Source of the DNA: Pseudobdellovibrionaceae bacterium
GTDB lineage: Bacteria; Bdellovibrionota; Bdellovibrionia; Bdellovibrionales; Bdellovibrionaceae
NCBI GenBank assembly: GCA_016785955.1
Contig: JAEUWH010000042.1
Span: 1 to 64,000, forward strand
Direction of reading: 5' to 3'
Length of the DNA: 64,000 bases
Shown here in pieces: positions 1,808-54,314 of this stretch (its first letter is position 1; each line of letters starts with the position of its first letter). The notes beneath the pieces were generated by a model, which made no database searches, had not been told where the DNA came from, and saw only the letters and a list, made by a program, of their open reading frames with translations. Made by a program: the position numbers and the translations under genes.

Positions 1808-3577
1808 ATGAGACATATAAATTTGCAAAAAAAAATAAGGGGATTGTTGTCATGGTTGACCATTTTCTTGATGGTTCCTGTGATAACGTGGGCGCAATTT
1901 CGCGAAGAAATCGGATCTCTGGAAGCAAAGTATGAAGCCAGGGCGCGAGCGGTGCTGAACACCGTTTTAAAACCATATGAGTACTCACTCGTTGTGGCTG
2001 TCGACATCGATCGCGACGAAGCCAGATTGAAAGAAATCGAAGACGAATACGAAAAAAATTCTTTGCCCGGAATGCCCGGTGTGGCTGGTTTTGATTCTCC
2101 AGCGCTTTCAAATCAATTATATGATTTGAAAACTAAAATTGAAGTGCATCTTGTGGTCGGTGAAACGGTCAGTAAAGATCGTCAAGACACCGCCAGTGCT
2201 TTGTTAAAAATGAAACTCCGAATTGAGGAAAAAAACGGAGACATGCTCACAATCGTTCGCTCAAAATTACCTACGGCCATCGACGAAGAAAATCCAGTTG
2301 AAAAATTACCCGAGTTCTCTTGGAAAATGTGGAGCCTCATTGTCATCGTGGCTTTGTTGTTCTTATCCGGAATGTTTTTCTACTGGAGCCGTCGTAATGC
2401 AACTCAAGAAAAACATAGCGAGTCGCATACTGAAAATAATAAAACCGTGGATGCGGCCAATAGTGCTGCTGATAACGAATCCAGTGCCGAAACTGCTGGC
2501 GAACCGAAAGCTTCGGCCTATATTGATATACAGCTTGATCCCAGTGAGCTTTTATACGAAAGCAAGCAACAAATTTTATCCTTAGCGACACAGTACCCTC
2601 AAGCCACCATTCAAGCCCTGACCGAACATTTTCAAAAAGGTGAAGAACAAGACATCTTATTAATGTGTGAGTCCTTTGGTTTTGAAGTGGCCAAAAAAAT
2701 ATTTTCGGATTTATCTCCTCGCATTTGGGGGAAATTGGGATTCCTTTTGGTGCAACGTAAAGAAGTTCCTAAAACCTCGGCTTATTCGACAGCAGTGAAC
2801 TCGTGCAGTCGTATTATCCTTAAGAAGTTCTTAGAGATTGGTCAAGAAGACACCAAAAATCCATTCGGTTTTGTTTGGAAGTTGACGGCTGACGATCGTA
2901 TGAAGTTGCTCGAGGGTGAATCCACATCAAGTATTGCATTGATTTGTTTATACTCGGATAAGTCGCAGATGGCAGAACTGTTCGATAGCTTGACATCACA
3001 GCAGCAAGAAGCGGTCACAATGCATATCGTTCGGCTTGAAAAAGTGGCGGATAGCATGATTAAAACAGCAGTCGAGGCCCTAACAAAAAAATTACGTCTT
3101 ATCAAAGAGAATCCCGAAATGCTTACTAACGGAGTGGCCGTTGCTGCGGATTTGTTGAAAGCACTTCCCGCCGAAAAGGAACTTGTTTTCTTTGATAAAA
3201 TGCTACAGGACAATCCAACCCAAGCCGAAAAAGTTCGTCGATTTACGTTGATGTATCCTGATATGATTTTTGTCCCTAGTGATGTGATCGCTGATGTGGT
3301 CAGCCTCTTAGATTTAAATGTTATCGTCATGGCCCTTCGTAAAGGACACGATAATGTCCGCGCGCATATTCTGGCCTCGTTGCCACCGAAAAAAGCGATG
3401 ATGATCGAAAAAGATTTGAAATATATTGAAGCTAAGCCAACCGACAAACAATTAGCAGAAGCTAAACGCGCCATCGTAAAGGAAACAAGTGCTTTACTCA
3501 GTGCGCGTGGCATGGAACTCGAAACCTTGATTCCAATTGAAACTAAAATTCGTGATGTCAGTCAGGGAGCCGCGTAA
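1808..3577 (+). CDS. Membrane-anchored FliG-like protein with FliF-like periplasmic segment
   Basis: Predicted as a bitopic inner-membrane protein with its FliG-like part in the cytoplasm. Residues 1-29 form a signal peptide (positive QKKIR, hydrophobic core, ITWA end). Residues about 36-120 (ARAVLNTVLKPYEYSLVVAVDID) resemble the ring-building domain of FliF. One transmembrane helix spans about 175-193, followed by WSRR and a low-complexity linker to about 245. The rest resembles the middle and C-terminal helical domains of FliG: LEGESTSSIALICL recalls the FliG gE-pqtiAl motif, and MALRKGHDNVRAHILASL recalls ALkGa--elrekil. FliG is normally a soluble switch protein of about 335 residues that MotA pushes against. 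Here it is tied to the membrane and periplasm. It heads an operon that includes MotA and MotB. A TTG at 1805 is an alternative start; no clear ribosome-binding site precedes either. Confidence 0.7.
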   Translation: MRHINLQKKIRGLLSWLTIFLMVPVITWAQFREEIGSLEAKYEARARAVLNTVLKPYEYSLVVAVDIDRDEARLKEIEDEYEKNSLPGMPGVAGFDSPALSNQLYDLKTKIEVHLVVGETVSKDRQDTASALLKMKLRIEEKNGDMLTIVRSKLPTAIDEENPVEKLPEFSWKMWSLIVIVALLFLSGMFFYWSRRNATQEKHSESHTENNKTVDAANSAADNESSAETAGEPKASAYIDIQLDPSELLYESKQQILSLATQYPQATIQALTEHFQKGEEQDILLMCESFGFEVAKKIFSDLSPRIWGKLGFLLVQRKEVPKTSAYSTAVNSCSRIILKKFLEIGQEDTKNPFGFVWKLTADDRMKLLEGESTSSIALICLYSDKSQMAELFDSLTSQQQEAVTMHIVRLEKVADSMIKTAVEALTKKLRLIKENPEMLTNGVAVAADLLKALPAEKELVFFDKMLQDNPTQAEKVRRFTLMYPDMIFVPSDVIADVVSLLDLNVIVMALRKGHDNVRAHILASLPPKKAMMIEKDLKYIEAKPTDKQLAEAKRAIVKETSALLSARGMELETLIPIETKIRDVSQGAA

Positions 3578-3579: not shown

Positions 3580-6500
3580 GTGAAATTATACCACTGGCTT
3601 TTAGTCCTCATTACTGCGTTGAACTTGGTGGCATGCTCGGATTCGGGTGTGCAAGGCACCAGTCTGTACAGTGCATTCAAAGGTTTGTCGAAAGCAACAC
3701 CAATCAGTCCGACCGCCGTTCGTTTGAATTGGGGGTTAGATTCTAAGTACGCCGAATACAGAATTTATGAAAACGATGGTGCTAGCCCGATCAAAACCGA
3801 AACATTTTCGACTGTCATCGTCGCGGATTTACAACCAGGATCGACGTACTCTTTCATGGTCTCTGGTTACTCGTCGACAAACGGTGAAACATTCTTGGGA
3901 GAACGGCAAAGTGTTAAAACATTTGATCGTTTTGCGGGTATCGAGGCTGCTGGTGTCGTTGTCAAATCTTCTTCTGAGGTGAAGTTGTCATGGAAAACAA
4001 ATTCAGAGACAACGAAATATAAAATCTATTACAAAGTCAAAGCTGACAATTGGAGTTTTACCGCACCCAACGCCATGGTCGAAGGGGCAAACGAATATAC
4101 AGTTTCGGGATTGACCTCGGGAGCATCCTATTGTTTTTATATCGTGGCCAGTTATCAAGACGAAACATCTGAGCCGGCCGTCACCGATATCGCAGCTGTG
4201 AATGCTGGCGCGCCTTGTATACAGTTAACGACGCAACTGGTGGGACTGCCATCGGTTAATATTAATAATGTTGTACCTGGAACGTTTCCTTGGTTTTGGG
4301 CATCTAACGGTGATCCCAGTTATAAAACAGAAATTTATGAAGGCGATACAAACATTCGAGTCGCCACTCGAACGGGAAATGGAACATTCCGCGCATTCGT
4401 CAATACCTCGCAAGGATCGAAGCGTTATTATGCCTTGGTATCTGACGCTAGCCAAAACGTAGCGCGAGTAGAAGTGGGTTCGATCGGCACCGTTGTTACC
4501 GATCGTGTTTCCGTACGAAGTTTAAACGCCACAGGGAATTTAGGCCCGATTTATCCGCCCGTATTGGCTGGGGGACGAGGACAGCAAAATCTTGGCAATA
4601 GCATTGTTTCTGGGGATTTCAATTGTGATGGATTAACTGATATTGCCGTGGCTTCTTATAACTCGGTGCCGTTTGTTACAGATCGTCACTATACCCAAAT
4701 AGGTTCCGTATCTGTCTACTATACTTGGCAACCACCGGCCTACTTGGATCCAGAAACAAACTTAACCGTGACACCACCTTTAGAATTAAAAACGGACGTG
4801 GCTCCGGCCGCGTCGGCTGTGTTTCCAAATGCACAGTTGATCACCTATCCTGTGACTGTCTCGGCGGCACAAATAGGAAAACGTCTCAGCGTAGGAAATT
4901 TTAATGGTGATTGTTATAACCGTAACGTCCAGGATCTAGCGCATCCCGAAATTTTACGCGGGCGATGTGATGCGGTTTACATGAGTCTTTATAATCCTTC
5001 GGCTTCTAAGTATGAAAAAGTTAAAACGTGTGATGATTTGGTCATTGCCACCAGCGCCGGGTATTTTTACACCGTATTTGGTGATCCTGTCGATGGTCTG
5101 GTGACGGGTTCAATGTCAAACACCGCCGGTGAGGATGAACTCACATGTGATGCGTCCTCGTCTACGTGCCGTGCGGCCCGCTATACGACTCCGGCAACGT
5201 ATGCAAACGCGTCGTTTGGTAACGGACTGACAACGGGTGATTACAATAATGATGGCTATTCCGATATCGCCGTTTCGGCGGTTTCAGGGACACGCACAGA
5301 TGTCTTAGTTTATCGCGGTTCACCCCAAGGAATTATTCCTCATGGGAATTCTAAATCGCATGCTTACATCAACCCCTTAGTGGGTGTGGCTACTAATTAT
5401 GTCAGTTATATTCCTTTGGCTAATAAATCAAATACAGAAGTTGTTCAAGCTGACCGATTTGGAGTGACGCTGGGTACGGCTTATAATTCTCGCTATTGTG
5501 TCAATAACTCCCCGGCCGGCTATGTGTTTCGCACCAGTGGTATCCCACCAAAAAATGGTTATCATGTAAGTAAGTGTGATGACCTTGTCATTGGTTCGCC
5601 AGGTCGAAGTACGAGTCGTGGTTCGATCTATACATGCAAAGCCACCATTCATTTTGGCAGTGCGGATCCTCAACGTATTTCTCAGTGGACGTGTTTGGAA
5701 CACTATCCTAGTGATTTGGTCGGAACGGATGCTCAGTATGGTCTGTCGATCATGGGTGTGAAAAATCAAAATGGTTATCCCATGGCAACAAATATTCGTG
5801 CCAGCATTGCGGCGAATGCGCTTCCCGATGTTACCGGCGCGCTATTCGTGGGTGCTCCGTACGCGACATTTAATGGGTATGAAGAAGCCGGAAAAGTGTA
5901 TGGTTACTATGTCACGCCAACCAGTGCGAATTACTCCAGCGGCGGGATTCAAGGCATCTTGGGCTCAGGATCTCATGCGGCGACGGCCGTTAACACAATC
6001 CCCTGTGATGCCACTAACACCAATGTTATTAATGGATCATTACGTCAGTGCGAACACCAAATTATATCGGCGTCACCGGTCAACGCCTGGGCACGCTTTG
6101 GCTATTCTTTGGGAACCATTCCAGATCGTATTGGAGGCGTGGATCCTTGGATGCCCATGTTAGCCGTATCAGCTCCTTACCGTACAACAACCGATTCCAG
6201 TGGAAATTCTATTGCCAGCACGGGCAGTGTATTTTTATTTCGTGGTGATATCTCGACATTCATGAACCAAATTGATGGCATCGAAGAAATCACCGTTCCT
6301 AAGTACAATGCCGATGTGCCACCACCGGGAAATCCCGTGACAGGCAAAACATGGTATTCGGGTGGCGTCAGTCCTTATGGACCAAATATCATTTATCCCA
6401 CAGGGTTAACGGCCTATTCTTATTTTGGAATGGGCGGAATTGTTGGTGGCAGTTTCAATGGTGATACGTACGCCGATGTGATTTCAACGGCCATGGAACA

Positions 6501-8247
6501 AAACTCTCCCAGTTCTGCCAATGGGGGAATGTATGGATTTTTCTCGTCTCAAGGGACGTTTAATCCTTCGGTCAGCAAAGCAGATATAAAAATTACGGAG
6601 AATCACAGTCTTGAAGGTAACTATCGTTTCGAGGAAGCTCAGGTTGTTGGTGATTTAAATGGCGATGGTTATGACGATGTCGTCAGTCACTTGAATAATA
6701 ACGGGCGCTGGGTTTTAGTCGTGTACTATGGATCGTCGATGGGGTTAGTGAAAACGCCAGCTCCCAGCTATACAGCTGTGGGACTGCAGCCAAAACTGGT
6801 GCGTTCGGTGACAGACTCTATGCTGGGTGCCAAATTTTACCGTATTGGTGACAATAATGCCGATGGCTTTGATGACTTATTAGTACTAGGCAGTGGTGCA
6901 AGCTATATATACTTTGGTTCGTCGTCTGGTCTTGTCACATTGGCGGAACCTGATATCTCGCCTATTGGAAAAAATCCTTTAAAATTCGCGCTGTCTGGCT
7001 CGGGCGTGTTGCAGTTCAATGCGACTTCGAATAATGTCGATTCCTATCCGACATCGCTAGATAGCATTGGTGTGAATAGTTATATTCAAGGCGTTGCATA
7101 TGGTCGATACAATGATGACGAGTACAGTGATTTTGCTATTCGCATTGGCTCGAGTTCGTTAAATGTTCACACCTCGGTACAAAACAGTAATTTAACATAT
7201 ACAGCTTATGGACGTGTGTTCATTGTGTACGGCGGTGCCAGTGGCCCTAATACGAATCGGGTTACGGGTCGAATTACGATGAACAATCCAGACGAAGTCG
7301 TTGTGGATAATCCATGCGATACGGCAACTAAATTGTGTAAAGTGCAAATGCTGGCGTCGTTTGACAATACGGTGGGAGGAGCATTTGGCTTTGGCTTGGC
7401 AACTCGAAAAGGCAGTAACTCGGCAACCAGTGATCAATTTGATGGTTTAGTCATTACGAATCCAACCATCAATTCCAATGATGGGCGTGCCTATGTCTAT
7501 AAAGGATCGATTCGTGGTCTTGAGGCCATTCCGATACAAACCTTGGTTTCACGAAATACTGGCAGCTATTTTGGTTATTCCGTTGTCGAGGCTGGCGACA
7601 TCAATAGAGATGGCTACGCCGACCTTGTGATTGGTAAAGGATCCACGGATATATCGTCAGGGATCACTGTTTTCTATGGCGCCAAAGTGGGTGGACAAAA
7701 TGCCTACTATGGAGCGGGATCTTTGGCGTCCACAAATTTTTGGGCGGCACCAGCGATTGACGATAATGCTCGTCATACGTTGGTAACAAATCCTCGTCCG
7801 CAAGTGATCGTACCCAATCTTGTGGTCAGTGGTGATGAATTCGGACGGGGAATCGCAGCGGTTGGTGACTTCAATTTAGATGGTTATGCCGATGTGGCGA
7901 TGAACGTGTCTAATGGGGACTTCACGCTTTCTGGAACTTTGCAAGAAACGGGATATGTTCTTGTTTATTTTGGAAGTGAAACAGGTTTGCAAAGTATGGA
8001 TACTGCGACCAATATTCCGCTATCGCCGACGCCCTACCCACGGTGTTATGGTGGTACGACCTCATTGTGTGAACCTTTTCAAGTTTTCTTACCGAATGCG
8101 ATCGATTTTGAATACACGCTGATTGGTCCGCATTCAGTCGGAGATATCAACGGTGATGGATTAAATGACTTACTCGTTGGTGGTTATGGACGTAATCATC
8201 CAAGTGGCAAAGCGATTTCATCAGGGGTGCTGTATGTGCTTTACTAG
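3580..8247 (+). CDS. Giant surface lipoprotein with FN3 domains and FG-GAP repeats
   Basis: A 1555-residue predicted outer-membrane lipoprotein: signal peptide with lipobox LVAC (Cys19) followed by Ser, which does not signal inner-membrane retention. Two or three fibronectin type III-like domains follow (residues about 35-300; e.g. SPTAVRLNWG, LQPGSTYSFMVSG). The remainder holds about ten FG-GAP/VCBS-type repeats with calcium-loop motifs such as GDYNNDGYSDIAV, GDLNGDGYDDVV and GDINRDGYADLVIG, which normally build an integrin-alpha-like seven-blade beta-propeller. Cysteine pairs lie between blades. Such proteins are calcium-dependent adhesins or surface scaffolds. The GTG start has AGGGAG 10 bp upstream and follows the FliG-like gene by 2 bp. 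The next gene is a tandem paralogue. Ligand unknown. Confidence 0.82.
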   Translation: MKLYHWLLVLITALNLVACSDSGVQGTSLYSAFKGLSKATPISPTAVRLNWGLDSKYAEYRIYENDGASPIKTETFSTVIVADLQPGSTYSFMVSGYSSTNGETFLGERQSVKTFDRFAGIEAAGVVVKSSSEVKLSWKTNSETTKYKIYYKVKADNWSFTAPNAMVEGANEYTVSGLTSGASYCFYIVASYQDETSEPAVTDIAAVNAGAPCIQLTTQLVGLPSVNINNVVPGTFPWFWASNGDPSYKTEIYEGDTNIRVATRTGNGTFRAFVNTSQGSKRYYALVSDASQNVARVEVGSIGTVVTDRVSVRSLNATGNLGPIYPPVLAGGRGQQNLGNSIVSGDFNCDGLTDIAVASYNSVPFVTDRHYTQIGSVSVYYTWQPPAYLDPETNLTVTPPLELKTDVAPAASAVFPNAQLITYPVTVSAAQIGKRLSVGNFNGDCYNRNVQDLAHPEILRGRCDAVYMSLYNPSASKYEKVKTCDDLVIATSAGYFYTVFGDPVDGLVTGSMSNTAGEDELTCDASSSTCRAARYTTPATYANASFGNGLTTGDYNNDGYSDIAVSAVSGTRTDVLVYRGSPQGIIPHGNSKSHAYINPLVGVATNYVSYIPLANKSNTEVVQADRFGVTLGTAYNSRYCVNNSPAGYVFRTSGIPPKNGYHVSKCDDLVIGSPGRSTSRGSIYTCKATIHFGSADPQRISQWTCLEHYPSDLVGTDAQYGLSIMGVKNQNGYPMATNIRASIAANALPDVTGALFVGAPYATFNGYEEAGKVYGYYVTPTSANYSSGGIQGILGSGSHAATAVNTIPCDATNTNVINGSLRQCEHQIISASPVNAWARFGYSLGTIPDRIGGVDPWMPMLAVSAPYRTTTDSSGNSIASTGSVFLFRGDISTFMNQIDGIEEITVPKYNADVPPPGNPVTGKTWYSGGVSPYGPNIIYPTGLTAYSYFGMGGIVGGSFNGDTYADVISTAMEQNSPSSANGGMYGFFSSQGTFNPSVSKADIKITENHSLEGNYRFEEAQVVGDLNGDGYDDVVSHLNNNGRWVLVVYYGSSMGLVKTPAPSYTAVGLQPKLVRSVTDSMLGAKFYRIGDNNADGFDDLLVLGSGASYIYFGSSSGLVTLAEPDISPIGKNPLKFALSGSGVLQFNATSNNVDSYPTSLDSIGVNSYIQGVAYGRYNDDEYSDFAIRIGSSSLNVHTSVQNSNLTYTAYGRVFIVYGGASGPNTNRVTGRITMNNPDEVVVDNPCDTATKLCKVQMLASFDNTVGGAFGFGLATRKGSNSATSDQFDGLVITNPTINSNDGRAYVYKGSIRGLEAIPIQTLVSRNTGSYFGYSVVEAGDINRDGYADLVIGKGSTDISSGITVFYGAKVGGQNAYYGAGSLASTNFWAAPAIDDNARHTLVTNPRPQVIVPNLVVSGDEFGRGIAAVGDFNLDGYADVAMNVSNGDFTLSGTLQETGYVLVYFGSETGLQSMDTATNIPLSPTPYPRCYGGTTSLCEPFQVFLPNAIDFEYTLIGPHSVGDINGDGLNDLLVGGYGRNHPSGKAISSGVLYVLY

Positions 8248-11200
8248 ATGGAAATCGATTTCAAAAATTCTGGCACTTTTGTTTTTTACGGCTCTGGCCG
8301 GTTGTACCGGTGGTGGTGTGCAGTCGGGTTCGGTTATTCAGACCTTTATCGGAGTGGATGAAATTATAGTGTTGTCGCCAACCACAGTGAAATTGACATG
8401 GAGTAAGTTGGCGAATGTTAAAGAGTACAAAATTTATAATAGTTCCAGTTCACAACCGATTGCCACCACGACTTTAGATTTTTATTTGATCAAGGATTTA
8501 ACGCCGAACTCGGTTTATACATTTAAAGTGGTGGGCACCAGTGATTCAGCTCAGTATGGTTTTGACCGTGAGTTGTCGGTGACGATGTGGCCACGATTTA
8601 AAGGTATCACGACGGCTACGCTTTTAAATAGCACCTCTGCCGAACTGACGTGGGACTATCCATATAAACCACAAAAGTACCAAGTGTTTTACCTTAAAGA
8701 TCAAACACCGACGGCGTCTAATACGGACAATTGGAAACGGGCCAATATGGAAACGGCCGACAATAAAATCGTGATTCCAAATCTGGCGGGTTCCAGTACA
8801 TACTCGTTTATTGTTCATGCCCTTTATCAAGAAAAAGAATCAGAGATCACGTCTCAGGTATTGAGTGTCAGTACGCCGGCGGGATTTACTCAGCCAACGT
8901 ACTCGTTGTCGCCAATCTCTATTGGGAACTTGCCGTCTATTTCTGTAACTCCTGTTCCCGACGCTAAACATGCGATTAATTTTTTCAAGACAACAGTTTT
9001 GTGGAAGGGAAATCCAATCTCGGATCCATTGATGGGACAGGGAAGTATCGTACTTTCTTCGGGTGCAAACTTGCCCCTAGGGAAAATCACTGATTTAAGT
9101 TTGAAAGTTGAATATCAAGATGGAAATTTAACAGAGTCCATGAATGTACCCGGCCTGTCGACGTTCATTAAAGGAATTCCTTTGCATATCGAAAAACCCT
9201 CGGTTCCGTCCTTAGGCAGTGGGACATCATATATGGGTAAGGCTGTTGCGGCGGGTGACTTTAACTGCGATGGTATTGATGATTTAGCTATTGGTATCCC
9301 AGATATCAGTTTGGCGCAGTTAGGCGTCAAAGTCTTGTCGGCCGGTGCGGTGTTTGTTTACTATTCAAAATTTAATGCGGGTACAAATTCCTATTTCTTA
9401 AATACGACAGGCACGCCGTCGCTGACCCCAAATAAGCCGGGTGAAGATCCACAAATCATTACCTTTGATGATTTAGCTTTACGTGAACGCTTTGGGTTTT
9501 CACTTTCGACGGGAAATTTGAACGGTGACCAAAATGGTTTGAACTCGTGCATGGATTTAATCGTAGGTGCGCCTTGGGCACGCAACACGATTGCGGGGCG
9601 TACGAACCAGCATGGCGCTGCGTATATGTTTTTCGGAAGTACGAAAGGCTTATCAGCACCGTCTCATGTCGCGGACATGCCGTCGAACACGTCAACGTGC
9701 AATGGGGACTTGCAAGCGTCTATTTGTACACCAGTTAAATTATTCGAAGATCCCTCTACGGTGCCTTCGGCGCTGACCACGGGACAGTTAACCTACACTT
9801 ATGCGGGTAACTCAAACAATTATCAAACAGGATACTCTGTTGCATTCGTTGGAGATTTCAACGCTGATGGGTTTGATGACGTGGCCATTGGGCAGCCTCA
9901 AACTCCTTTCGATGGTGTTATTCCCGGCTATAATACGTATAGCGGGCTTATCGAGCGCGTGGGTTCTGTCCTTATATTTTTCGGTTCTCGTTATGGGTTA
10001 GGGTACGAGTATCCGGCCGCCGGTGGTACGCCCAGTGCCGGAGACTTAAAAGTCCGTTATTTAAAAATTTTCCCGCCGGTGCCGATCACTGGTTCGCGGT
10101 TTGGAGAGGCCATCGCTGGTGGTGCGGACATTGATGGAAAAAATAAAATTCGTTTAGCTGATGGACGCTTGGCGGGTGGTGGCGATATGGTCGTCGGTGC
10201 GCCGGGTTTCTCGTATGTCGACTACACAACCTCAAGTCCTTTAAGAACAAAGATTGATACGACGCCCGATGCCGCATCGATCATTCGTCTGCCGTCTAGT
10301 CTTGGCTGGTGGCAACCGTCGGTTTCACAAACCTTATCATCGTCGACACACTATTATGGTTTTCCTCAAGGTGGAACGGCGGTTGGAGCCGCATTTGTTT
10401 ATTTTGGTCGAGGCAGTCCTACGGCGCCATCCATGGCTAATATCGAAGTGCCCTCGCGCGCATCGTTTTGGGCTTGTGGACGTCGAGGTTTAAGTTTTAC
10501 CGAACATTACTCGTGTCTAGTGGATAATACCAACGTGCGCATGTTAACACCACGTGATCCTAATTCGCGTGCGTTTGGTTCGGCGGTCGCGGTCCTTGGT
10601 GATAAATCTCGTTTTAAGGTGTTGTCAAATAACTCTGTTTTATTGACGGACACGGATCCTAATCCGGCAGTGCCTCGTCAATATTTTTCAGATACGAATC
10701 GCGATGGTTACGCCGATATTGTGGTGACAGCACCAGAGTCTAACGTCGGTTCAAAAGTACGTGTTGGTGTCTTGACGACATTTTATGGTAATCCCGATCG
10801 TTTATTTAATGTGGCGGACTTGTATAATCTTTATTCCAACAACACGCCGACCAGTGATTATAGAATTAATGATCCTACGTGTGCGTCGTATGGGACAATT
10901 TCGGCGCTTACAAAACAAAACTGTGCGCCCGTGGTGATCCGATCAACCTCACTGGCCGATAATTCCATGATTGGTGCCAACCAAAAACAAATTGCGGTTG
11001 GCGATGTCACGGGTGATGGGATCAAAGATTTAGCTATTGGAGACTCTGGAGATTTCGTCAACGCGGCGGGATCGGGTGCGGCCCTTGTTTTTACAAGCGC
11101 ACAAGGCCTAGGCTTGACGGCCACATATAAGAAAATTTATTCTTTCTCGGCCGATGCGGGAGACGCACTAGGTTCGTCGGTTACGCTCGGAAATTTCAAT

Positions 11201-13504
11201 GGTGATTTTAACTCTGTGCCGCCTCCAGATGGTGCAACGACGGCGAACACGACATTCCCCTACTTTGACGTGTTTTCAGGAGCACCCAATGATGAAGTCA
11301 GCCATTTTGGCGGTGGTGCGGTCTATGGTTTCTTAAGTTCGAATACGTCGCTTCCTTCGATTGTCAGTACGCACAGTATTTTGATTACTGAAAACATCGC
11401 TTCTTTCCAAGACTATGGTTTGGGCGAATCCCGTCTGGTCGGTGACGTCAATGGCGATGGTTACGATGATGCGGTTTCCAAGATGGTTGGGGTGACGGCG
11501 ACAGGGCAAGTCAGTTATGACGCCGTTATTTATTACGGTTCATCTATTGGCTTAGTGACGACAGAGTTCTGTATCCAAAATGCGAGTCGAGTATTTCGGT
11601 CTTCAAGTACATCGACCAGTGCCTGTTACCCACAGGTAACACCTTCGCCAGGGCTTACCAATTCAGATATTCAGTTGCCTCAAAAAATATCTCGCCCTTC
11701 GAACTTGGATCCGCTTTGGGCCTATATGGCGGTCTCCGCGGGTGACGTCAACAACGACGGCTTTGATGATGTATTGTTTATTCCGAGCCAAAGTGCGACG
11801 AATAGGTCGTCGACGTTGTACTTCGGAGCGCGTGGTGGCTTGCAAAATGTGGTTGACCCTTCATGGGAGCCGGCGGCCGGTGATCCACAAATTGTTTCGC
11901 AGGTTTTTACCGTGAATCAAGGTTCTGAAACTGACGAATTCAATATGCAAAGTAGTAATTTGCGTGTTCCATACGTTGCAGATGATTTCAATAAAGACGG
12001 TTATTCAGATCTCGCAGTGGGGATGCCGTTCGAGACCTCACCCGTGATGAACAAATCCAGTTCATTGCAACCGCAACCGGGATACCCAAACACAGTGGCT
12101 AACGGCAATGGCTGGGTGTGTGGTACCGATGTTCTGCCTGAATGTACGGGTGGGCAGGGAATTCAATATCACGGTACGATTCGTATTATTTATGGATCAA
12201 GTCGTGGCTATCAGACTCCACGCAATAACAATTATTCAGGGGACATCACGACCGGAAATACGGCGGCGATGGTCAACATGCTCGATACGGAAACGGGTGG
12301 AACGAAGCCATGTCAAAATAGTTCGTCTCCAGATCCTGTGTGTAAAGCGGCTTATATGCACAATCCTGTGTTTGAGAATATTAACTATGGTTATTCGCAA
12401 CTTTCGCATAAATTTGGCTTCAGTGTTGCGACGGCCGATATGAATAAAGACGGCTATCCAGATTTGTTGGTCAGCGCTCCGGGTTTCGAGGATGTCAGCT
12501 GTTGGCATGGCGGTAGTCCAAACCGTGACTATGGGCGTGTGTACATATTTTACGGCAGTGCCAACGGTTTATTGGCGGGAAATCAATTTGAATATTATAA
12601 TCGTGCTTACAATGTCAGTTGCCCGGTGCCAGCGGAATCAGATCCTGCTTCGGGTTTAATGGTCAGTTCTACGAAGGTTCGAGCCATTATTCCTTCGCTG
12701 GTGACTTATGGGGTCGGTGGCAACGTCACCGGTCGCCAATTTGGTATAACTCTTTCTTCTGCGGGTGATTTAAATGGAGATACTTATCCAGATCTTGCGA
12801 TCGGCGCGCCCACAGAGTCTTTGTCGGGATTGGATAATGTTGGACTGAGCTATATTTACTATGGTCCGTTGTGTGCTGCTGACAATGAATCCAACGTAAC
12901 CAGCGCATTTCAACGACGCGACGGGAGTGCGGACAACATTAATCGACAGATGTATTACTTAGGGCAAGCGCCTGCGGGAACGCCGACAGCAGATATTTTC
13001 AATGGGGCTTTGTCACCAACGTATACGGCCGCGTGCTTTCGTGGTTCTGGTTCGATGATGAAACCGATGCCACAAAAGTTTTACGTATTTGGTGCTGATG
13101 CGAATCAAAGTTGGGGTACAACATTGATTGGAAATAAAATTTCTAAAGGCGACTTTAATCTGGATGGTTATGACGATTTGATTGTCGGAAGTGCTATAAT
13201 GGGTGATGTGTCGCGTGAGTTAACTCGGGTGGGTGCAGGTATCGTGTATTTTGGAAGTTCGCGAGGTCTTTATACGGCCGAATACCCTAACACGATGGTG
13301 TCGGTCAATGCCAACATGCAAGCGCGGCCATTTACTATTTTGCCTACGCAGTTTCCTAACGAGTCACTATTTTTCTATGGTAATAGTTCGGTCGGAGACG
13401 TCAATGGGGATGGCACAATGGATGTGATGGCGACATCGAAGTATTATAACGGTACAAGTGATTTCAGGGGTATTAATTTAGGTTCGTTTTTCTTATTTTA
13501 TTAG
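8234..13504 (+). CDS. Giant surface lipoprotein with FN3 domains and FG-GAP repeats (tandem paralogue)
   Basis: A 1756-residue paralogue of the preceding gene with the same plan: lipobox LAGC (Cys24), two FN3-like domains (LSPTTVKLTWSKL, LTPNSVYTFKVVG), then about fourteen FG-GAP-type repeats with loops such as GDFNADGFDDVAIG, GDVNGDGYDDAV, ADMNKDGYPDLLVSAP and GDFNLDGYDDLIVG. That number is enough for two seven-blade propellers. The frame is open from 8165, but the ATG at 8234 has AGGGG 6 bp upstream and gives a proper signal peptide. It overlaps the upstream gene by 14 bases, implying translational coupling. Predicted to sit on the cell surface as an adhesin or as a scaffold for the motor components encoded downstream. 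Confidence 0.82.
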   Translation: MCFTRWKSISKILALLFFTALAGCTGGGVQSGSVIQTFIGVDEIIVLSPTTVKLTWSKLANVKEYKIYNSSSSQPIATTTLDFYLIKDLTPNSVYTFKVVGTSDSAQYGFDRELSVTMWPRFKGITTATLLNSTSAELTWDYPYKPQKYQVFYLKDQTPTASNTDNWKRANMETADNKIVIPNLAGSSTYSFIVHALYQEKESEITSQVLSVSTPAGFTQPTYSLSPISIGNLPSISVTPVPDAKHAINFFKTTVLWKGNPISDPLMGQGSIVLSSGANLPLGKITDLSLKVEYQDGNLTESMNVPGLSTFIKGIPLHIEKPSVPSLGSGTSYMGKAVAAGDFNCDGIDDLAIGIPDISLAQLGVKVLSAGAVFVYYSKFNAGTNSYFLNTTGTPSLTPNKPGEDPQIITFDDLALRERFGFSLSTGNLNGDQNGLNSCMDLIVGAPWARNTIAGRTNQHGAAYMFFGSTKGLSAPSHVADMPSNTSTCNGDLQASICTPVKLFEDPSTVPSALTTGQLTYTYAGNSNNYQTGYSVAFVGDFNADGFDDVAIGQPQTPFDGVIPGYNTYSGLIERVGSVLIFFGSRYGLGYEYPAAGGTPSAGDLKVRYLKIFPPVPITGSRFGEAIAGGADIDGKNKIRLADGRLAGGGDMVVGAPGFSYVDYTTSSPLRTKIDTTPDAASIIRLPSSLGWWQPSVSQTLSSSTHYYGFPQGGTAVGAAFVYFGRGSPTAPSMANIEVPSRASFWACGRRGLSFTEHYSCLVDNTNVRMLTPRDPNSRAFGSAVAVLGDKSRFKVLSNNSVLLTDTDPNPAVPRQYFSDTNRDGYADIVVTAPESNVGSKVRVGVLTTFYGNPDRLFNVADLYNLYSNNTPTSDYRINDPTCASYGTISALTKQNCAPVVIRSTSLADNSMIGANQKQIAVGDVTGDGIKDLAIGDSGDFVNAAGSGAALVFTSAQGLGLTATYKKIYSFSADAGDALGSSVTLGNFNGDFNSVPPPDGATTANTTFPYFDVFSGAPNDEVSHFGGGAVYGFLSSNTSLPSIVSTHSILITENIASFQDYGLGESRLVGDVNGDGYDDAVSKMVGVTATGQVSYDAVIYYGSSIGLVTTEFCIQNASRVFRSSSTSTSACYPQVTPSPGLTNSDIQLPQKISRPSNLDPLWAYMAVSAGDVNNDGFDDVLFIPSQSATNRSSTLYFGARGGLQNVVDPSWEPAAGDPQIVSQVFTVNQGSETDEFNMQSSNLRVPYVADDFNKDGYSDLAVGMPFETSPVMNKSSSLQPQPGYPNTVANGNGWVCGTDVLPECTGGQGIQYHGTIRIIYGSSRGYQTPRNNNYSGDITTGNTAAMVNMLDTETGGTKPCQNSSSPDPVCKAAYMHNPVFENINYGYSQLSHKFGFSVATADMNKDGYPDLLVSAPGFEDVSCWHGGSPNRDYGRVYIFYGSANGLLAGNQFEYYNRAYNVSCPVPAESDPASGLMVSSTKVRAIIPSLVTYGVGGNVTGRQFGITLSSAGDLNGDTYPDLAIGAPTESLSGLDNVGLSYIYYGPLCAADNESNVTSAFQRRDGSADNINRQMYYLGQAPAGTPTADIFNGALSPTYTAACFRGSGSMMKPMPQKFYVFGADANQSWGTTLIGNKISKGDFNLDGYDDLIVGSAIMGDVSRELTRVGAGIVYFGSSRGLYTAEYPNTMVSVNANMQARPFTILPTQFPNESLFFYGNSSVGDVNGDGTMDVMATSKYYNGTSDFRGINLGSFFLFY

Positions 13505-13519
13505 AACGTGGAATGTAAT

Positions 13520-16500
13520 ATGAAAAAAACCATTTTTGTATTTTTGTGTGTTATATTTTTAATAGGTTGTACGGCACAAGAGAAGTCGTCTCCGATCATT
13601 ATTCCGCCCGGGTCAGAGGTCCAATACTCAAATGCCGAGTTTGTTCAACTGGCCAAAGAATTCTATTCCGTAGAACTTAAAATGTACGATCGTCAGAGCA
13701 AAAAGTTTATTGCGATCGAAGATCTAACGCCCAAAGATAGAAAAACAGATCTTAAAAATATTTCTTATATCATTCCTAAAGACAAAGATTCGCAGGGATT
13801 TTATATTCTTGATGTGCAGATGTCTCGATTAGGTATGGGATTTCAGGCGATCGTTTTACCAGGTGTTGTGACAACGCCAGACATAGCCACCACGATGGCC
13901 TATGAACTGTTGATGAATTATCCCAAAAAAGAGATCTTTGAAAACAGTATCGAGTTTGTCACCGCCATCGAAAATTTTATTCGTAAAGACCTAGCGGACG
14001 TAAATGCCCGTGTGCAATTTCCCGAGGATTTAGGTCTAAATGGCAAGTATCGATTTTATAAAAATGGTGTTTCCAGTCGAATTGATTTTTTAAAGTTAGT
14101 TAAGTCAGGAAATATTGAATTTAATTATAACAATCAAGGAAATATTCTTGGAGAACCCTATCCATTTGGTAAAAAAAATTCGATGCCGGGACTCGATACG
14201 TCGAATTCGACGCCGCTCAGTCGCGAGGTTCGCGGTGCTGAAAAATCCGAGATAAAAATTCGTGGATTTGCCATGGACCCCGACAATGATTTTATTTTGT
14301 ATCAATGGTATAAAGAAGGAACCTACTATAACAACAAACCAAAAGAATTTTTTTGGACGCCCGATTTTTCAGATAGTAAAGTGGATCCCTATAAGGTTAA
14401 ACTAGAGATCAGCGACGGGGGGCCCGTTCAAAGCTATGAATGGAATCTGATCGTCGACAATTTGAATCGTAAGCCCTATGTAACCAAAAACTGCGTGAAC
14501 ACGGTCAAGGAATGGGAAACGTACACGTGTAAAATCTCGGCGCAGGATTTTGATGGCGAAGCCATTTCATTCACTGTGTCTGATAGTGCGGTGAATGCAC
14601 GCATCAAAGTCAATGGCCAAGCCACGGATGATACAACCAGAAAAATCACGGTCAGTAACGTGAATGAAATCACGATTGAATTCACCCCGAATAACGAAGA
14701 TGCCCTTCGTCGGGCGGGTTATATCGAAGTCAATGTGGCCGATGTGTCGGGTGGGACGGAAGTTGTTCCACTGAATATCTTCATCGAGGATATCAATACG
14801 GCGCCAGATATTGTCGGTTCGTACTCGGTCCTTAGTGTGGGTGGAGGACAGCATGAGTGGGACTATTGTGAAAAGAAAGATCCCGATGGTAAAGCTCCAT
14901 TCTTTTTTAAAATCGAAGTGCGTGATCCTGACAATCAGCCGTCGGCCTTTCCACGAAGTCAACATCCAGACAAAGTTCAAGTGAATGTGGCGGGGACGCT
15001 GTCCGACAAAGTTAGTCGTATCGATGATCCAACAGATGCCGACAACTATGCACCCGGAGCATGCCCGGCATCGACTGCGGAAGCCATGTTTTTCTGCTAT
15101 GTTTGGAAACCGACTCAAACTGAAAAGTCAGGAACATTGACTTTTACGATGAAAGATAATCATGGCGGAATTTCACCGCTTAAAATCGTGAACATCGTCG
15201 CCGAAGATAGAAATCAAAAACCGTGTCTGGGTGTAGTGGCGAAAACTGCGGTTATTGACGAACTAGGTCCAACCGTCAGTTATAAAATCAGTGCTAATGA
15301 TTCGGATGGGGATTTGCCCTATATGACGATTGAAAATTTAAGCCCAACGGTCATGCCGTTTTTGAAAGATTGCAGTTCGGCCGTACAGCCTCTTATATTG
15401 AAAGAGAACTTTAACGATACTTTTTTTGCGGGTAAAGTATACCGTATAGCCGAAGGGGCTGGTGGTGGCGCTTCATCCTGCACGCAAGCCAATTATAACA
15501 GCACGTACTCTGGAGTCGTGACATTTTCTAGAACAGTGCCGTTCGGAACCGATGTGGTGATCCCGTTGGGATATCCGTTGCAGACAGCCTATCCGGCCAG
15601 TGGGTATCGTATTAAGTATACAGTTGCAAAAGAAGTAACCATGGGACCGAATGATAAAAGTGTCACGGTGCCTGTTACGGCGACTGATCGTGCGGCCACT
15701 TCGGGGATGTTAAACAAAATCAAAACAAATGTTCCGACGGGATTCATACCACCCGCTGATCTTACGGTTAGTCATACGGCCACGATCACCAACAAAGGCA
15801 CGGCCACGCTGACTCGTACCAATACAGCCTCGGTGTTAAACCTGCCGACGGGAATGATGGTCACTTCGGACGAGCTGGTGTCTAGTTCTCAGAGTTCCTT
15901 GGTGTATGTTACAACGAAACGATACAAGATGGCTGCGGGCGTGGCCAGTCTTCCGATTACGTTGGTGCAAAAGAAGTTACGTTTAAATCCAGGAGCTTTA
16001 ACCGTTATGACGGGAGCGGCCTTGGCTGATGCCGGTATCACGGCTTCAAATTTAGGAATTATTTCGGGTGAAGTGGGTTATACTCTGGCTCAAGAAAATA
16101 AAACAGGAGTCGATTTGAATGTTGATAACTTCTGTTGGAATATTTGGGCAGAAGATGGGTATAAAGTTCCAGCAAATTCGACGTTGCAATTTGTTGGTAT
16201 GGCTCCGGCCACGGGTCTGACACTCAGTAACTCGCTGATTGTGGATTTATTGGGGATTGTGACGGTGACTCGCACAAATACATCTGCGCCTTTGACAATT
16301 GCCGCGGGAACGGTCTTTAAAACGGCCAATGGATCACAATACCGCTCGAATGCTAACGTCACACTGGGGTCGGGCCAGGCGACGGCAAATTTGAATGTCC
16401 GACGAATTAATCATCTTAGCCCACTTCCCGTAACCAGTACCAGTGCCGTTGATCCAGGGGCGTTGAACCAATTCGTAGCCGCACCACCACAGGCGGGAAT

Positions 16501-19500
16501 GACGGTTGTAAACCCGACGAATCTTTTTGATTTTGGAGATGTTATATTTACGCGAACCGATGTGACATCGGCGTTAACGATTCCGGCTAATACAGCTCTG
16601 AAAACAGCGACGAATTTTGAATTTAAAACAACAGCGGCCGTAACGATGGACATCGGTCAGTCCAAGGCTGAAGCGCCCGTGCAAAATGTATCGCCGACTT
16701 CGATTGTTTACAATACCGGAGCGAATCGTCTATGTCTGGGCTTTAGTGATTTGAACTATATCCCAAAATTTATTTCATCACTATCGGCCGTAACGACAGA
16801 GGGTACCAATACGATTGATTTTCCCATCGAAGTGAACGACAATATTTCAGACCCCGATTTTCCAAATGACCCTTCCGACCGTCACTGGTTCACGATCACC
16901 AACCTAGGGGCTGCGCCCACAGGCACGATCCTGTTTTGCCGTGACCCCGGAGACAATCCCGCAAATGTAAATTCACCAGCCTGTGTACCGTGCTCGTCAC
17001 CGGTCGCGGCAGATTATTGGGAATCGGCTCGTTGTTATATGCGGTTTGCCCCGAATATCGCTCATACGGTGACTTCTGATATTACGAAGACGTTTAGTTT
17101 TGTTATATCAGCGAATGATAATGGTATGACTGTTCCGTCTGGCACTAACGTCGCGACGCAAACGCTGTCGGTCACCGTCGCTGAATTGAATGATCCACCG
17201 GTGCCCACCGATTTGGCGTGGAATCCTTTAGCAGGGAATACTCATTTAGCGCCACTGAACCTGGGTGGGTTTACCGAGGGAACTTTAAATGAATACTTCA
17301 TATATGCTTCGGACCCCGATCGTTTGGCGAACAATAAAAAAATTGCGTTCAGTCTTGAGGCTCAAGTTTATGACATTTCGACCAGTACATGGGTCAATCG
17401 ACCTTCCGGTATGAGTGTAGGGGTCGATACTCCTAATGATGACCCATTTGGTACGACATGGGGCTCGCGGTATCGCGGCAAAATATTTTGGACTCCCACT
17501 GATGCGGAAGCGAAAAAATTCGCGTCGCCATTAGGATTTGTGGTGAAGGTCAAGGTTTCGGACGCCAGCGGGACGGGTGTATATAATTTTGCGTATTACA
17601 AAGTTTCGGTTGTGAATATTAATCAGTTGCCATTTTTAAATGCGGCGGTGACCTTGAGTGCGGTGGCGGATACGTACTTTACGAGCTCGACTATTGTCAT
17701 CAGCGATAAAGATTTCTCCAGTGTTGGGGCCCCGGTTAATTTTCAAACCAGTTTAAGCCTTTGCAGTCCTAATTCAACGATCAATTGTGCAGCTCCGTTA
17801 ACGGGTTGGCCCGATGAAGTTTTAACTTATGATCCATTATATATGGGAAATTCAGCGGTTGCTTCATGTCGCACAGGCAGTAATTTAAAGACTCAGTTCG
17901 CGTTGCCTTATTTGACCCGCAGTGCCTCTGGCACGGTGGCAGCAGATCGAATTTCATATACCTATAGATTCGATTGGTGCCCTCAAAAGAGTCATATAGG
18001 AAATCATACGATATTTGTTAATATGAGTGATAATGGTGACAAAGACCGAAATAATTTGGCGTTGCCTTCACAAGAGGTCATGGCTCCGATTACCTTAAAA
18101 GTCGTGGCACCCGTATACTTTATCAGTCCCGGAAAAAATTCGGCGGGCACGGTTGTTCATTACATGAAACGGGCATTTGCGGGGCGGCCTTACACATATA
18201 AAACAATAATTAAAAACTCGAAGGGTAATGCTGTTACGTATACATTGCTGACTGCACCCACGGGAATGACCGTCAATACATCGGGCGTGATTTCTTGGAC
18301 ACCGACCAATGATCAAATTACTTCGGTGGATCCGTCTACGTGGCCAACGGTTCAAGTGCGTGTGCGAGACAATGCAACGGGCGAAATAGATACGGCCAGC
18401 TTTCGGGTTGAAGTCAAAAACATGTTATCACCAGTGCAGGCATCGCCGGTGATCGTGGATCAAAACCCGTTGACATCAGCAACGAGTGTCAAAGAACGCG
18501 TGCGAAAAAACTTTTCGGTCGTTGCGAGTGATGCGAACAGTGATCCACTTTTTTATCGTTGGTATTTGGATGATGTATTGGTTTACGATGCATCCTCGAC
18601 GTATGAATACTTTCCGGGAGTTTTGGATGGTTATACGGACCCTGATGGTGTGAACTCGTTAAAGCCAGGGCAACATAAAATTTTGGTAGAAGTGACGGAT
18701 GCATACAATACGGCATCATTCAGTTGGCTAGTTCAAGTTAAAAACACAGTACCCTCACCGGTATTAGCATTTAATTTATTGACCTATACCACAGGAATCA
18801 CGAACTTGGCGTGGGGGCCAGAGGCGAAAGTGGCTTTGACGTCGGGGGCGAATACCGTGAACTCGTTGGTTTTCTCGGGTAACTATAAGCGCAGTAACCA
18901 GGTTAAAAATTTCGTTTATAATTTAATTTTCCAAAACGGCAGTTTTGCGGCTTCGGCGTCCACCGTGAAAAGTATGGAAGTCTTGCAGTGGGCGGCGGGA
19001 ACAACCACCGAGCGAATTTCCTGGGAACCTGTTTCTGGTACTAATTTCAATATTTTGCTGACGTCTCAAATAAATCGGGAAGGCCCATTTAGTTCGTTGG
19101 TGAATGCGGCTCGGTTACCAAGCAGCTTAGGAATGACGGCTGTGAACGCAGCAAATTTGTGTAACGGTACGTGCCCCTTTACTTTGTATGGTGGTGCGGA
19201 CTCGTTTGGGTTTCGTCCTAGCACGACGTGGACGTCAGGATCGACATATGTATTTACGGCATCCAATGCTGCAGATCAGATTCTTTGGGATCGTGATGGT
19301 GGTACGTCGACAGTGTTTCAGACGTTGACGGGAAACTTTAGGGTGGTTTCTATGGCTACAAATCCAAATACAAAGCGATTGTACGCGGCAGTGCGGGATG
19401 TGGGCAGTCAAGTCAACCGTTTGATGGTGTTTGATATTTATCCTGTGACTTCAGGAAATCCACCGACATTGCTCGCGACTTTGAATGTGTTCGATGGTGT

Positions 19501-19900
19501 GATGGCGGATAATCGCATTTTGGATGTGGTTGTTGTACCCAATCTGAATAAAATTTTTGCATTGTTGCCAGGAACGGGTGGAATGGCGGTCTTAACAGAT
19601 AATGGTATGTCGACGCCGGTTAACGGTGACATCCAGTTTGTGGGGGTAACGGAAATTGGTTCATCGTATTCTGATGTTGTGGGTAGCGGACGAAAACTGG
19701 TTTACAACCCCACCGTCGAGCTTCTGTACGGCATTAGTAAAGATTCCAATCAGTTGTTTTCCTTGGACCCAGCCACGATGGAACTTAAGGTTTATGCCAG
19801 CAGTATCTCGGGTGGTTTTGATACGTTGGTGACCTATCCGAACGATAGTTTAACATTGGCCATCAGCAAGACTTTGGGCCAAGTTTTTATCGTAAAATAG
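13520..19900 (+). CDS. Giant lipoprotein with Ig/cadherin-like and baseplate-J-like repeats
   Basis: The largest protein in the window (2126 residues). Signal peptide with lipobox LIGC (Cys17). Residues about 220-600 contain Ig/cadherin-like domains with calcium-type motifs (AMDPDNDFILYQW, SAQDFDGEAISFTV, EDINTAPDIVG). Residues about 665-1075 hold four diverged repeats resembling the baseplate J-like beta-domain, with core patterns such as LTIAAGTVFKTANGS and LTIPANTALKTATN. More PKD/cadherin-like domains follow (LNDPPVPTDL, SVVNINQLPF), and the last 350 residues look like a beta-propeller (NTKRLYAAVRD, NPTVELLYGISKD). The start at 13520 has GTGGA 7 bp upstream; a GTG at 13508 is in frame. 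A long rod reaching out from the outer membrane is the natural reading. Gene 54315-57350 is the shorter counterpart in locus B. Confidence 0.72.
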   Translation: MKKTIFVFLCVIFLIGCTAQEKSSPIIIPPGSEVQYSNAEFVQLAKEFYSVELKMYDRQSKKFIAIEDLTPKDRKTDLKNISYIIPKDKDSQGFYILDVQMSRLGMGFQAIVLPGVVTTPDIATTMAYELLMNYPKKEIFENSIEFVTAIENFIRKDLADVNARVQFPEDLGLNGKYRFYKNGVSSRIDFLKLVKSGNIEFNYNNQGNILGEPYPFGKKNSMPGLDTSNSTPLSREVRGAEKSEIKIRGFAMDPDNDFILYQWYKEGTYYNNKPKEFFWTPDFSDSKVDPYKVKLEISDGGPVQSYEWNLIVDNLNRKPYVTKNCVNTVKEWETYTCKISAQDFDGEAISFTVSDSAVNARIKVNGQATDDTTRKITVSNVNEITIEFTPNNEDALRRAGYIEVNVADVSGGTEVVPLNIFIEDINTAPDIVGSYSVLSVGGGQHEWDYCEKKDPDGKAPFFFKIEVRDPDNQPSAFPRSQHPDKVQVNVAGTLSDKVSRIDDPTDADNYAPGACPASTAEAMFFCYVWKPTQTEKSGTLTFTMKDNHGGISPLKIVNIVAEDRNQKPCLGVVAKTAVIDELGPTVSYKISANDSDGDLPYMTIENLSPTVMPFLKDCSSAVQPLILKENFNDTFFAGKVYRIAEGAGGGASSCTQANYNSTYSGVVTFSRTVPFGTDVVIPLGYPLQTAYPASGYRIKYTVAKEVTMGPNDKSVTVPVTATDRAATSGMLNKIKTNVPTGFIPPADLTVSHTATITNKGTATLTRTNTASVLNLPTGMMVTSDELVSSSQSSLVYVTTKRYKMAAGVASLPITLVQKKLRLNPGALTVMTGAALADAGITASNLGIISGEVGYTLAQENKTGVDLNVDNFCWNIWAEDGYKVPANSTLQFVGMAPATGLTLSNSLIVDLLGIVTVTRTNTSAPLTIAAGTVFKTANGSQYRSNANVTLGSGQATANLNVRRINHLSPLPVTSTSAVDPGALNQFVAAPPQAGMTVVNPTNLFDFGDVIFTRTDVTSALTIPANTALKTATNFEFKTTAAVTMDIGQSKAEAPVQNVSPTSIVYNTGANRLCLGFSDLNYIPKFISSLSAVTTEGTNTIDFPIEVNDNISDPDFPNDPSDRHWFTITNLGAAPTGTILFCRDPGDNPANVNSPACVPCSSPVAADYWESARCYMRFAPNIAHTVTSDITKTFSFVISANDNGMTVPSGTNVATQTLSVTVAELNDPPVPTDLAWNPLAGNTHLAPLNLGGFTEGTLNEYFIYASDPDRLANNKKIAFSLEAQVYDISTSTWVNRPSGMSVGVDTPNDDPFGTTWGSRYRGKIFWTPTDAEAKKFASPLGFVVKVKVSDASGTGVYNFAYYKVSVVNINQLPFLNAAVTLSAVADTYFTSSTIVISDKDFSSVGAPVNFQTSLSLCSPNSTINCAAPLTGWPDEVLTYDPLYMGNSAVASCRTGSNLKTQFALPYLTRSASGTVAADRISYTYRFDWCPQKSHIGNHTIFVNMSDNGDKDRNNLALPSQEVMAPITLKVVAPVYFISPGKNSAGTVVHYMKRAFAGRPYTYKTIIKNSKGNAVTYTLLTAPTGMTVNTSGVISWTPTNDQITSVDPSTWPTVQVRVRDNATGEIDTASFRVEVKNMLSPVQASPVIVDQNPLTSATSVKERVRKNFSVVASDANSDPLFYRWYLDDVLVYDASSTYEYFPGVLDGYTDPDGVNSLKPGQHKILVEVTDAYNTASFSWLVQVKNTVPSPVLAFNLLTYTTGITNLAWGPEAKVALTSGANTVNSLVFSGNYKRSNQVKNFVYNLIFQNGSFAASASTVKSMEVLQWAAGTTTERISWEPVSGTNFNILLTSQINREGPFSSLVNAARLPSSLGMTAVNAANLCNGTCPFTLYGGADSFGFRPSTTWTSGSTYVFTASNAADQILWDRDGGTSTVFQTLTGNFRVVSMATNPNTKRLYAAVRDVGSQVNRLMVFDIYPVTSGNPPTLLATLNVFDGVMADNRILDVVVVPNLNKIFALLPGTGGMAVLTDNGMSTPVNGDIQFVGVTEIGSSYSDVVGSGRKLVYNPTVELLYGISKDSNQLFSLDPATMELKVYASSISGGFDTLVTYPNDSLTLAISKTLGQVFIVK

Positions 19901-21122: not shown

Positions 21123-21131
21123 GTGGATGTA

Positions 21132-22520: not shown

Positions 22521-22546
22521 TAACAACTTTGTTTTCGTCCCGATAC
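22521..22546 (+). promoter_or_regulatory. Weak sigma-28-like element before the PEGA/TPR lipoprotein
   Basis: CCCGATAC (22539-22546) matches GCCGATAA at 6 of 8 positions, and TAACAACT about 10 bp upstream matches TAAAGTTT at 4 of 8. The ATG lies 6 bases downstream. It may be an internal promoter for the lipoprotein-motA-motB part of locus A. Support is only the motif and its position, which mirrors 1772-1799 and 49238-49264. Confidence 0.25.
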
Positions 22547-22552
22547 GGAAAC

Positions 22553-27757: not shown

Positions 27758-28423
27758 CTAATAGTATGAGGTGCCGAATCCCAAAAATAGAGTGAAACCG
27801 CTGTAGTTAACTTGCTCTTTAGAGGTATTGGCATTGGTTCCGGACCGGTACGTGAACTCACCAGAAAAAATCATGTTTTGTTTGTACGGATAGTCATAAC
27901 CAAGACCTAGGGCTACTTCGTTTACTTGGGAACTGAAATAAAAATTAGTTAGGGGCGTGCTTTCATCGAATTTATTGATATTTAAATTTGCGGGGGTGAA
28001 CGAGCCCGACATATATGGACCTGGGCGAGATTTTTGGTGTAGAATATCATCATCTGTAAAAAGATGATTGGTCGTTATGCCGTAAAAGTAATAGTAACCC
28101 GTGACGCCGATTCCAGAAAGCGGGGTAAAGCCATACATGCTTTTTAGTTCTTGAAGAAAATGAACACCCATGCGCGAGCTGAAACTGGGTAGGTCCCAAA
28201 GAACGGTTGGTTTCAGAGTGATGGCTGGCTTGAGTGGAACATTCACGAGGCGATCGCCGGCTGTCACATTAATTGATGAAATTCCTGTTTTGAAATGCAA
28301 ATAGGGTATAGCTCCGGCCCATACGCAAGAGGTCCAGATAAAAGAAATCATTATAAGGGGAAAAGACATAGACGAAATTAAGCGATTGAGATTATAGTTA
28401 ACAAAGAAATGATTTTTTATCAT
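27758..28423 (-). CDS. Predicted small outer-membrane beta-barrel protein
   Basis: 221 residues with a long signal peptide (hydrophobic core PLIMISFIWTSCVW, cleavage near AGA). The mature part shows short alternating strands rich in Tyr, Phe and Gly (GIGVTGYYYFYGITTN; VALGLGYDYPYKQN) and ends with an aromatic strand (LFLGFGTSYY), typical of small barrels. The first in-frame start (28423) overlaps the divergent gene by 15 bases; an internal ATG at 28369 is an alternative. Neither has a strong ribosome-binding site. Function unknown; proximity to locus A suggests an envelope role. Confidence 0.62.
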   Translation of the reverse strand: MIKNHFFVNYNLNRLISSMSFPLIMISFIWTSCVWAGAIPYLHFKTGISSINVTAGDRLVNVPLKPAITLKPTVLWDLPSFSSRMGVHFLQELKSMYGFTPLSGIGVTGYYYFYGITTNHLFTDDDILHQKSRPGPYMSGSFTPANLNINKFDESTPLTNFYFSSQVNEVALGLGYDYPYKQNMIFSGEFTYRSGTNANTSKEQVNYSGFTLFLGFGTSYY

Positions 28424-47451: not shown

Positions 47452-47463
47452 AGGAGAGAAAAA

Positions 47464-54311: not shown

Positions 54312-54314
54312 AGT

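Follow-up and report, generated by a model that had tools for sequence, protein, structure and literature searches.

A FliF RBM3–FliG fusion encoded with its own MotA–MotB pair and giant lipoproteins as the probable rotor of a non-flagellar motor in Bdellovibrionota

The window, i.e., the 64,000-nucleotide stretch of Pseudobdellovibrionaceae DNA analysed here, contains a gene at 1808–3577 (plus strand) whose product, hereafter ROTOR1, unites two parts of the flagellar rotor in one chain. An RBM3 domain, which is the ring-forming domain of FliF, is followed by one membrane helix and by a part resembling FliG, the known flagellar rotor protein; this domain architecture is nearly certain. The fused gene is in one operon with its own MotA and MotB genes, for an ion-driven motor, and with genes for giant surface lipoproteins. 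These predator-type bacteria therefore appear to have a second rotary machine that is separate from the flagellum, although its motor genes have until now been counted as flagellar. We estimate a probability of about two in three that ROTOR1 is the rotor subunit of a dedicated MotAB motor that is non-flagellar, non-switching and export-independent and that acts on surface lipoproteins. Somewhat less firmly, but still as the likely case, we propose that Bdellovibrionota possess a FliG machine distinct from the flagellum. It would be an export-independent rotary motor in which a ring of fused RBM3-FliG, served by its own MotAB, turns giant lipoproteins of the cell surface or drags them along; some genomes would have two diverged versions of it, and it would include one of the three stators of Bdellovibrio bacteriovorus that are called "flagellar". 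The MotAB-FliG motor as such is known, and we rate the fused RBM3-TM-FliG rotor with its own MotAB and surface lipoproteins as a new variant of it.

The ROTOR1 reading frame is intact, running from an ATG at 1808 to a stop at 3577 and encoding 589 amino acids. A signal peptide at approximately residues 1–28 is indicated by a hydrophobic stretch at residues 10–28 and, after it, an AxA-type site that relatives share. The RBM3 domain covers approximately residues 25–155 (the FliF RBM3-like periplasmic domain, taken as residues 28–170, is encoded at 1889–2317, plus strand), the membrane helix residues 174–192, and the FliG-like part approximately residues 277–571. A signal peptide-like start and a single membrane helix were found in all 15 family members compared, and an extra hydrophobic helix, inside the FliG fold, was found only in the window copy. 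An earlier note, made from the sequence alone, had described an exported 589-residue chain with a signal peptide and one membrane helix, and the presence of the helix at 174–192 in 15 of 15 members agrees with it. ROTOR1 lacks the first helix of FliF (TM1), RBM1/2 and most of the collar; in place of two membrane helices flanking RBM1-RBM2-RBM3, it has a signal peptide, one domain and one helix.

In a Pfam search, ROTOR1 matched FliG_M (E = 2.2e-10) and FliG_C (E = 5.5e-10), each above the curated cut-off. A family profile built from six full-length relatives matched Thermotoga maritima FliG with an E value of 1.9e-29, co-linearly over residues 355–565, and significant matches of this profile among solved structures were to FliG exclusively. 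These matches bear out the FliG-like helical repeats seen in the earlier note. The middle and C-terminal domains of FliG occur in order, and the FliG N-M-C order is kept in full. Against the NCBIfam FliG equivalog model, ROTOR1 scored 49.8 bits, below the cut-off of 226.7; canonical FliG is a separate soluble protein, whereas ROTOR1 is a membrane-anchored fusion.

The motifs of 15 ROTOR1 family members were compared with those of canonical FliG from the same order and of T. maritima FliG. Every canonical FliG compared has the FliM-binding EHPQ motif, which none of the 15 members shows, a single one having EHPK instead. The alignment with canonical FliG also shows that the family lacks the GPVRL loop. 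The torque-helix equivalent of ROTOR1 is LPPKKAMMIEKDLKYI, at residues 525–540 (3380–3427, plus strand); it had earlier been placed around EKVRRFTLMYPD, a segment that in fact aligns to the MFVF stretch of FliG (RRRMFVFEDI). Using Escherichia coli residue numbers that we placed on this helix, we found the R281 position to be basic in 13 of the 15 members, with an invariant lysine beside it, and the D289 position to be acidic in all of them. The D288 position is not kept and is mostly basic or neutral. The picture for the charged residues of the torque helix is thus mixed, its basic and acidic ends being kept and D288 not. The MotA contact residues of the FliG torque helix are those named in PMC12505986.

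Searches of ROTOR1 against Pfam and NCBIfam gave no FliF match, and within the window's own genome Pfam YscJ_FliF_C detected only the canonical FliF, on contig C69, and not ROTOR1. The FliF identity of ROTOR1 therefore rests on structure together with profile–profile evidence, in which ROTOR1 scored a modest 26.5 against FliF at the corresponding place in the domain; the maximum score of 200 column-shuffled decoys was 20.4. A ColabFold model of ROTOR1 calculated from six sequences had a mean pLDDT of 70.6, and about 70 is the level of the models of the whole protein and of the isolated domain alike with this six-sequence input. When the whole model was compared with PDB chains using Foldseek, FliG occupied ranks 1–13 and the FliF RBM3/collar nearly all of ranks 14–32, maps 8z4d and 8z4g being among the matches. 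Alignment with VIA-align gave a Z score of 16.0 over 288 residues to C-ring FliG (the rmsd over the whole of FliG is large, about 16 Å, because the domain orientations differ), 10.8 with 2.0 Å over 88 residues to the MotAB-bound FliG domain (8ucs), and 11.9 with 2.4 Å over 101 residues to FliF RBM3. For the isolated periplasmic domain, the top 17 of 17 Foldseek matches and the best 15 structural alignments were all FliF RBM3, with Z scores up to 13.8 (2.4 Å, 95 residues), and the first unrelated fold had a Z score of 8.8. The element order of this domain, alpha-beta-insert-beta-alpha-beta, is that of the ring-building motif. Its length is 131 residues compared with 211 (228–438) in FliF, and therefore most of the collar is absent. 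The model thus resembles both FliG and FliF RBM3, as the structure prediction proposed in the earlier note was meant to reveal, and the D3-type segment named there is confirmed by the Z score of the isolated domain. Chance similarity to FliG or FliF is ruled out by the E value of 1.9e-29 and the shuffled-decoy scores.

ROTOR1 is the first of 11 genes on the same strand, separated by gaps of −83 to +46 bases and including MotA and MotB. It is followed by genes for two giant FG-GAP/fn3 lipoproteins, one of 1555 residues (3580–8247), kept with ROTOR1 in several relatives, and one listed as 1779 residues (8165–13504), the true start of which is probably later because the listed frame overlaps the preceding gene by 83 bases. 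Next are a putative surface lipoprotein of 2130 residues (13508–19900; Ig-like by eye, with no firm Pfam match, and kept in relatives), a 391-residue exported protein that is possibly an outer-membrane barrel (19947–21122; no Pfam match), a VWA-domain exported protein (21123–22502; kept in relatives) and a TPR lipoprotein with a weak PEGA match (22529–23452), which is present in all ROTOR1 loci examined. MotA, nearest to the PomA model, is encoded at 23465–24283, and MotB, with a plug, an OmpA-type peptidoglycan-binding domain and a coiled-coil-like tail, at 24249–25298. A one-TM helical protein (25267–26040), to which a weakly similar, similarly placed protein adjoining the rotor in relatives corresponds, and a 397-residue exported protein (26033–27226) complete the tight run. 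Beyond it lie two small putative outer-membrane proteins, one of 221 residues on the minus strand (27758–28423; kept in 14 of 14 examined relatives) and one of 206 residues on the plus strand (28409–29029; kept in nearly all of them). Upstream of the operon, at 278–811, two reading frames of 95 and 80 residues look by eye like a BrnT/BrnA-type toxin–antitoxin pair.

A second module with a rotor, MotA, MotB and lipoproteins lies 40 kb from the first, at 44377–57350 in its widest extent. On the plus strand it encodes a TPR lipoprotein (44377–44991), ROTOR2 (44988–46883), a small putative outer-membrane protein (46873–47451), MotA (47464–48246) and MotB with a plug and an OmpA domain (48279–49139). 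ROTOR2 is a diverged full-length homologue of ROTOR1, and the two aligned over their full length (543 columns, E = 1.8e-23) with little sequence identity. The periplasmic halves alone also aligned end to end (1.2e-4), and on account of this match RBM3 is assigned to ROTOR2; a direct profile comparison of its periplasmic part with FliF yielded nothing significant, and its FliG_C score is below the Pfam cut-off. No flagellar structural genes (export, rod, hook or filament) were recognised in either module. Related VWA proteins stand beside an exported protein of approximately 360–390 residues in both modules (41830–43191 and 21123–22502), the pair of module 2 being on the opposite strand.

ROTOR1 was found in 16 of 141 genomes of the order, and the ROTOR2 profile had matches at E ≤ 1e-100 in 38 of 369 genomes of the phylum, patchily and with other classes included. 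In the loci of 14 ROTOR1 relatives, MotA and MotB are on the examined stretch in 12; one of the remaining two has MotA just upstream, and the contig of the other is 13.8 kb long. On every contig of sufficient length, ROTOR1 is accompanied by MotA, MotB, the PEGA/TPR lipoprotein and the small putative outer-membrane proteins, and between genera this gene set is kept while its order is rearranged. A single-sequence scan of the genome contigs for ROTOR1 relatives found nothing, and an alignment-based scan found five. No relatives were found in viral contigs, and plasmid matches concerned the FliG part only. Contigs C120 and C65 matched FliG_C weakly, but the proteins concerned are by eye an RND-type and a regulator-like protein and were rejected as rotors.

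The same searches yielded several other observations. The window's genome has, in addition to the flagellar FliG and the two rotors, a further FliG relative (L005; contig C55, about 2595–3341, minus strand). The protein is soluble, 248 residues long and has the C-terminal domain of FliG (E = 6.8e-10); its gene adjoins a Ppx/GppA-like gene and has no FliG neighbours. The same genome has sixteen MotA/TolQ/ExbB-family genes, two of them within the window. A 572-residue frame (G079:C4:452738-453298) matched positions 10–212 only of the ROTOR2 profile and an 802-residue frame (G353:C43:17501-18139) positions 243–456 only; these may represent additional rotor types that are combined with other domains. 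In L140 and L127, true genes of the rotor module are overlapped by long open antisense frames, which automatic ORF selection can choose in their place.

Canonical FliF and FliG are encoded separately in the window's genome, on a different contig, and FlhA is present in 34 of 37 rotor-bearing genomes. In two genomes of different genera that are 97% and 99% complete (G125 and G127), neither FlhA nor FliF was found; both retain full-length ROTOR2, its TPR lipoprotein and its outer-membrane neighbour, with MotA-MotB on the same contig about 24–25 kb off and not adjacent. Another genome without FlhA (G091) was not counted as flagellum-free because it is 84% complete and FliF is present. The rotor module is thus not dependent on the flagellar export gate (FlhA), which holds for the ROTOR2 branch only; ROTOR1, unlike ROTOR2, has so far been found only in genomes with FlhA or FliF.

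In the single-contig genome G060, which we take to be that of B. bacteriovorus HD100, motA genes of this type lie at three places, 0.13, 2.92 and 3.17 Mb, in agreement with the order of locus tags Bd0144, Bd3021 and Bd3254. The MotA at 2.92 Mb is 65% identical to that of the window and is encoded about 4 kb from the ROTOR1 orthologue, inside the ROTOR1 module; the orthologue is located at about 2,913,426–2,915,168 on the minus strand. HD100 motAB2 (Bd3021/Bd3020) therefore probably belongs to the same module as the ROTOR1 operon of the window. In the open-licence literature, to which our search was limited, we found no description of a membrane-anchored FliG or fused rotor linked to motAB2 and no described non-flagellar FliG motor.

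For the machine itself, we infer ring formation, rotation by the co-encoded MotAB, the force path and the biological output as follows. After cleavage of the signal peptide, the RBM3 domain would lie in the periplasm and presumably assemble into a ring like that of FliF, the lone helix would span the inner membrane, and the fused FliG would form a cytoplasmic ring; that the FliG part faces MotA in the cytoplasm, as the earlier note held, is supported by the sequence and structure comparisons. MotA-MotB, anchored to peptidoglycan via MotB, would push the torque helix in the C-terminal domain of FliG and turn the ring. ROTOR1 lacks the FliM-binding motif and therefore should run without the FliM/FliN switch and not change direction by switching; likewise, because an export gate, RBM1/2 and a full collar are absent, neither rod nor filament would be built. 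From the turning ring in the periplasm, force may pass via the co-encoded one-TM helical protein and the TPR lipoprotein to the small outer-membrane proteins and the giant FG-GAP lipoproteins, and the output would plausibly be surface movement or contact with prey or surfaces. Between a ring builder and a single tethered track, we favour the ring for ROTOR1, since RBM3 is ring-forming in FliF and engineered FliF-FliG fusions also form rings. Such engineered Vibrio fusions form S-rings, seen in the 34- and 35-fold maps 8z4d and 8z4g (PMC11481574). Together with a Salmonella FliF-FliG fusion-deletion mutant that rotates (cited in PMC9389320), they make a rotor built from one chain feasible.

Alternatively, the fused rotors and additional MotAB pairs might be accessory parts of the ordinary flagellum, supplementing or altering its polar motor. 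According to work by Morehouse in 2011, all three MotAB pairs of HD100 reportedly contribute to flagellar motility. MotA2-Bd3021/MotB2-Bd3020 are treated as flagellar stator proteins (PMC11323537), B. bacteriovorus is described as having three MotAB pairs and two FliG copies (PMC3539863), and the frequency of FlhA shows that most rotor-bearing genomes are flagellated. We nevertheless consider an accessory role unlikely, as two nearly complete genomes devoid of FlhA and FliF have kept ROTOR2 and MotAB, neither module has a recognised flagellar structural gene, the FliM-binding motif is lost, and the same genome encodes canonical FliF and FliG separately.

Less likely again is a mobile or fixed force coupler with no rotating ring, in which MotAB pushes a few FliG-bearing subunits and thereby drags lipoproteins in an Agl/Glt-like manner. 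The co-encoded large surface lipoproteins and TPR lipoprotein would suit such a device, whereas the ring-forming nature of RBM3 in FliF and the complete FliG N-M-C order argue against it. B. bacteriovorus does glide on agarose, but four separate Tol-Pal-TonB-like gliding operons are described in it (PMC3539863). That the FliG part is only a scaffold that has lost its motor role, in an operon with MotAB but without mechanical contact, appears very improbable: the altered D288 position and the low FliG_C score of ROTOR2 are in its favour, but MotAB remains co-encoded in two diverged modules and across genera, and the end charges of the torque helix are conserved. If the preferred reading of a dedicated non-flagellar motor is true, MotAB and FliG would be working here with neither secretion nor switch nor filament. 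The flagellar torque module could then stand alone, which bears on the origin of the flagellum from separable modules, and the way in which MotA pushes FliG could be studied in a minimal motor. In B. bacteriovorus, a model predator, one stator pair out of the three called "flagellar" would belong to another machine.

The flagellar motor and the modules of the window have in common the RBM3 fold, FliG N-M-C, a PomA-like MotA and a MotB with plug and OmpA domains, and the feature of a MotA-MotB stator encoded with the rotor is found in the window module as well. By contrast, ROTOR1 joins the C-terminal half of FliF and FliG in one chain without TM1, RBM1/2, the full collar or the EHPQ site, and the modules carry surface lipoproteins in place of recognised export, rod, hook and filament genes. 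The engineered FliF-FliG fusions likewise have both proteins in one chain, form rings and can rotate; they are laboratory constructs that keep flagellar FliF, whereas ROTOR1 occurs in nature, is shorter and is encoded together with a stator of its own. HD100 motAB2 has been described as one of three flagellar stators, whereas here it would be the stator of a fused-rotor module. The Myxococcus AglRQS/Glt system (PMC9389320) is a MotA-family motor that is driven by the PMF and whose targets are proteins of the envelope and the surface. The description of Agl/Glt includes neither FliG nor FliF, whereas ROTOR1 has parts of both, and AglQ/S carry TolR-like domains where the MotB of the window instead has MotB_plug and OmpA domains.
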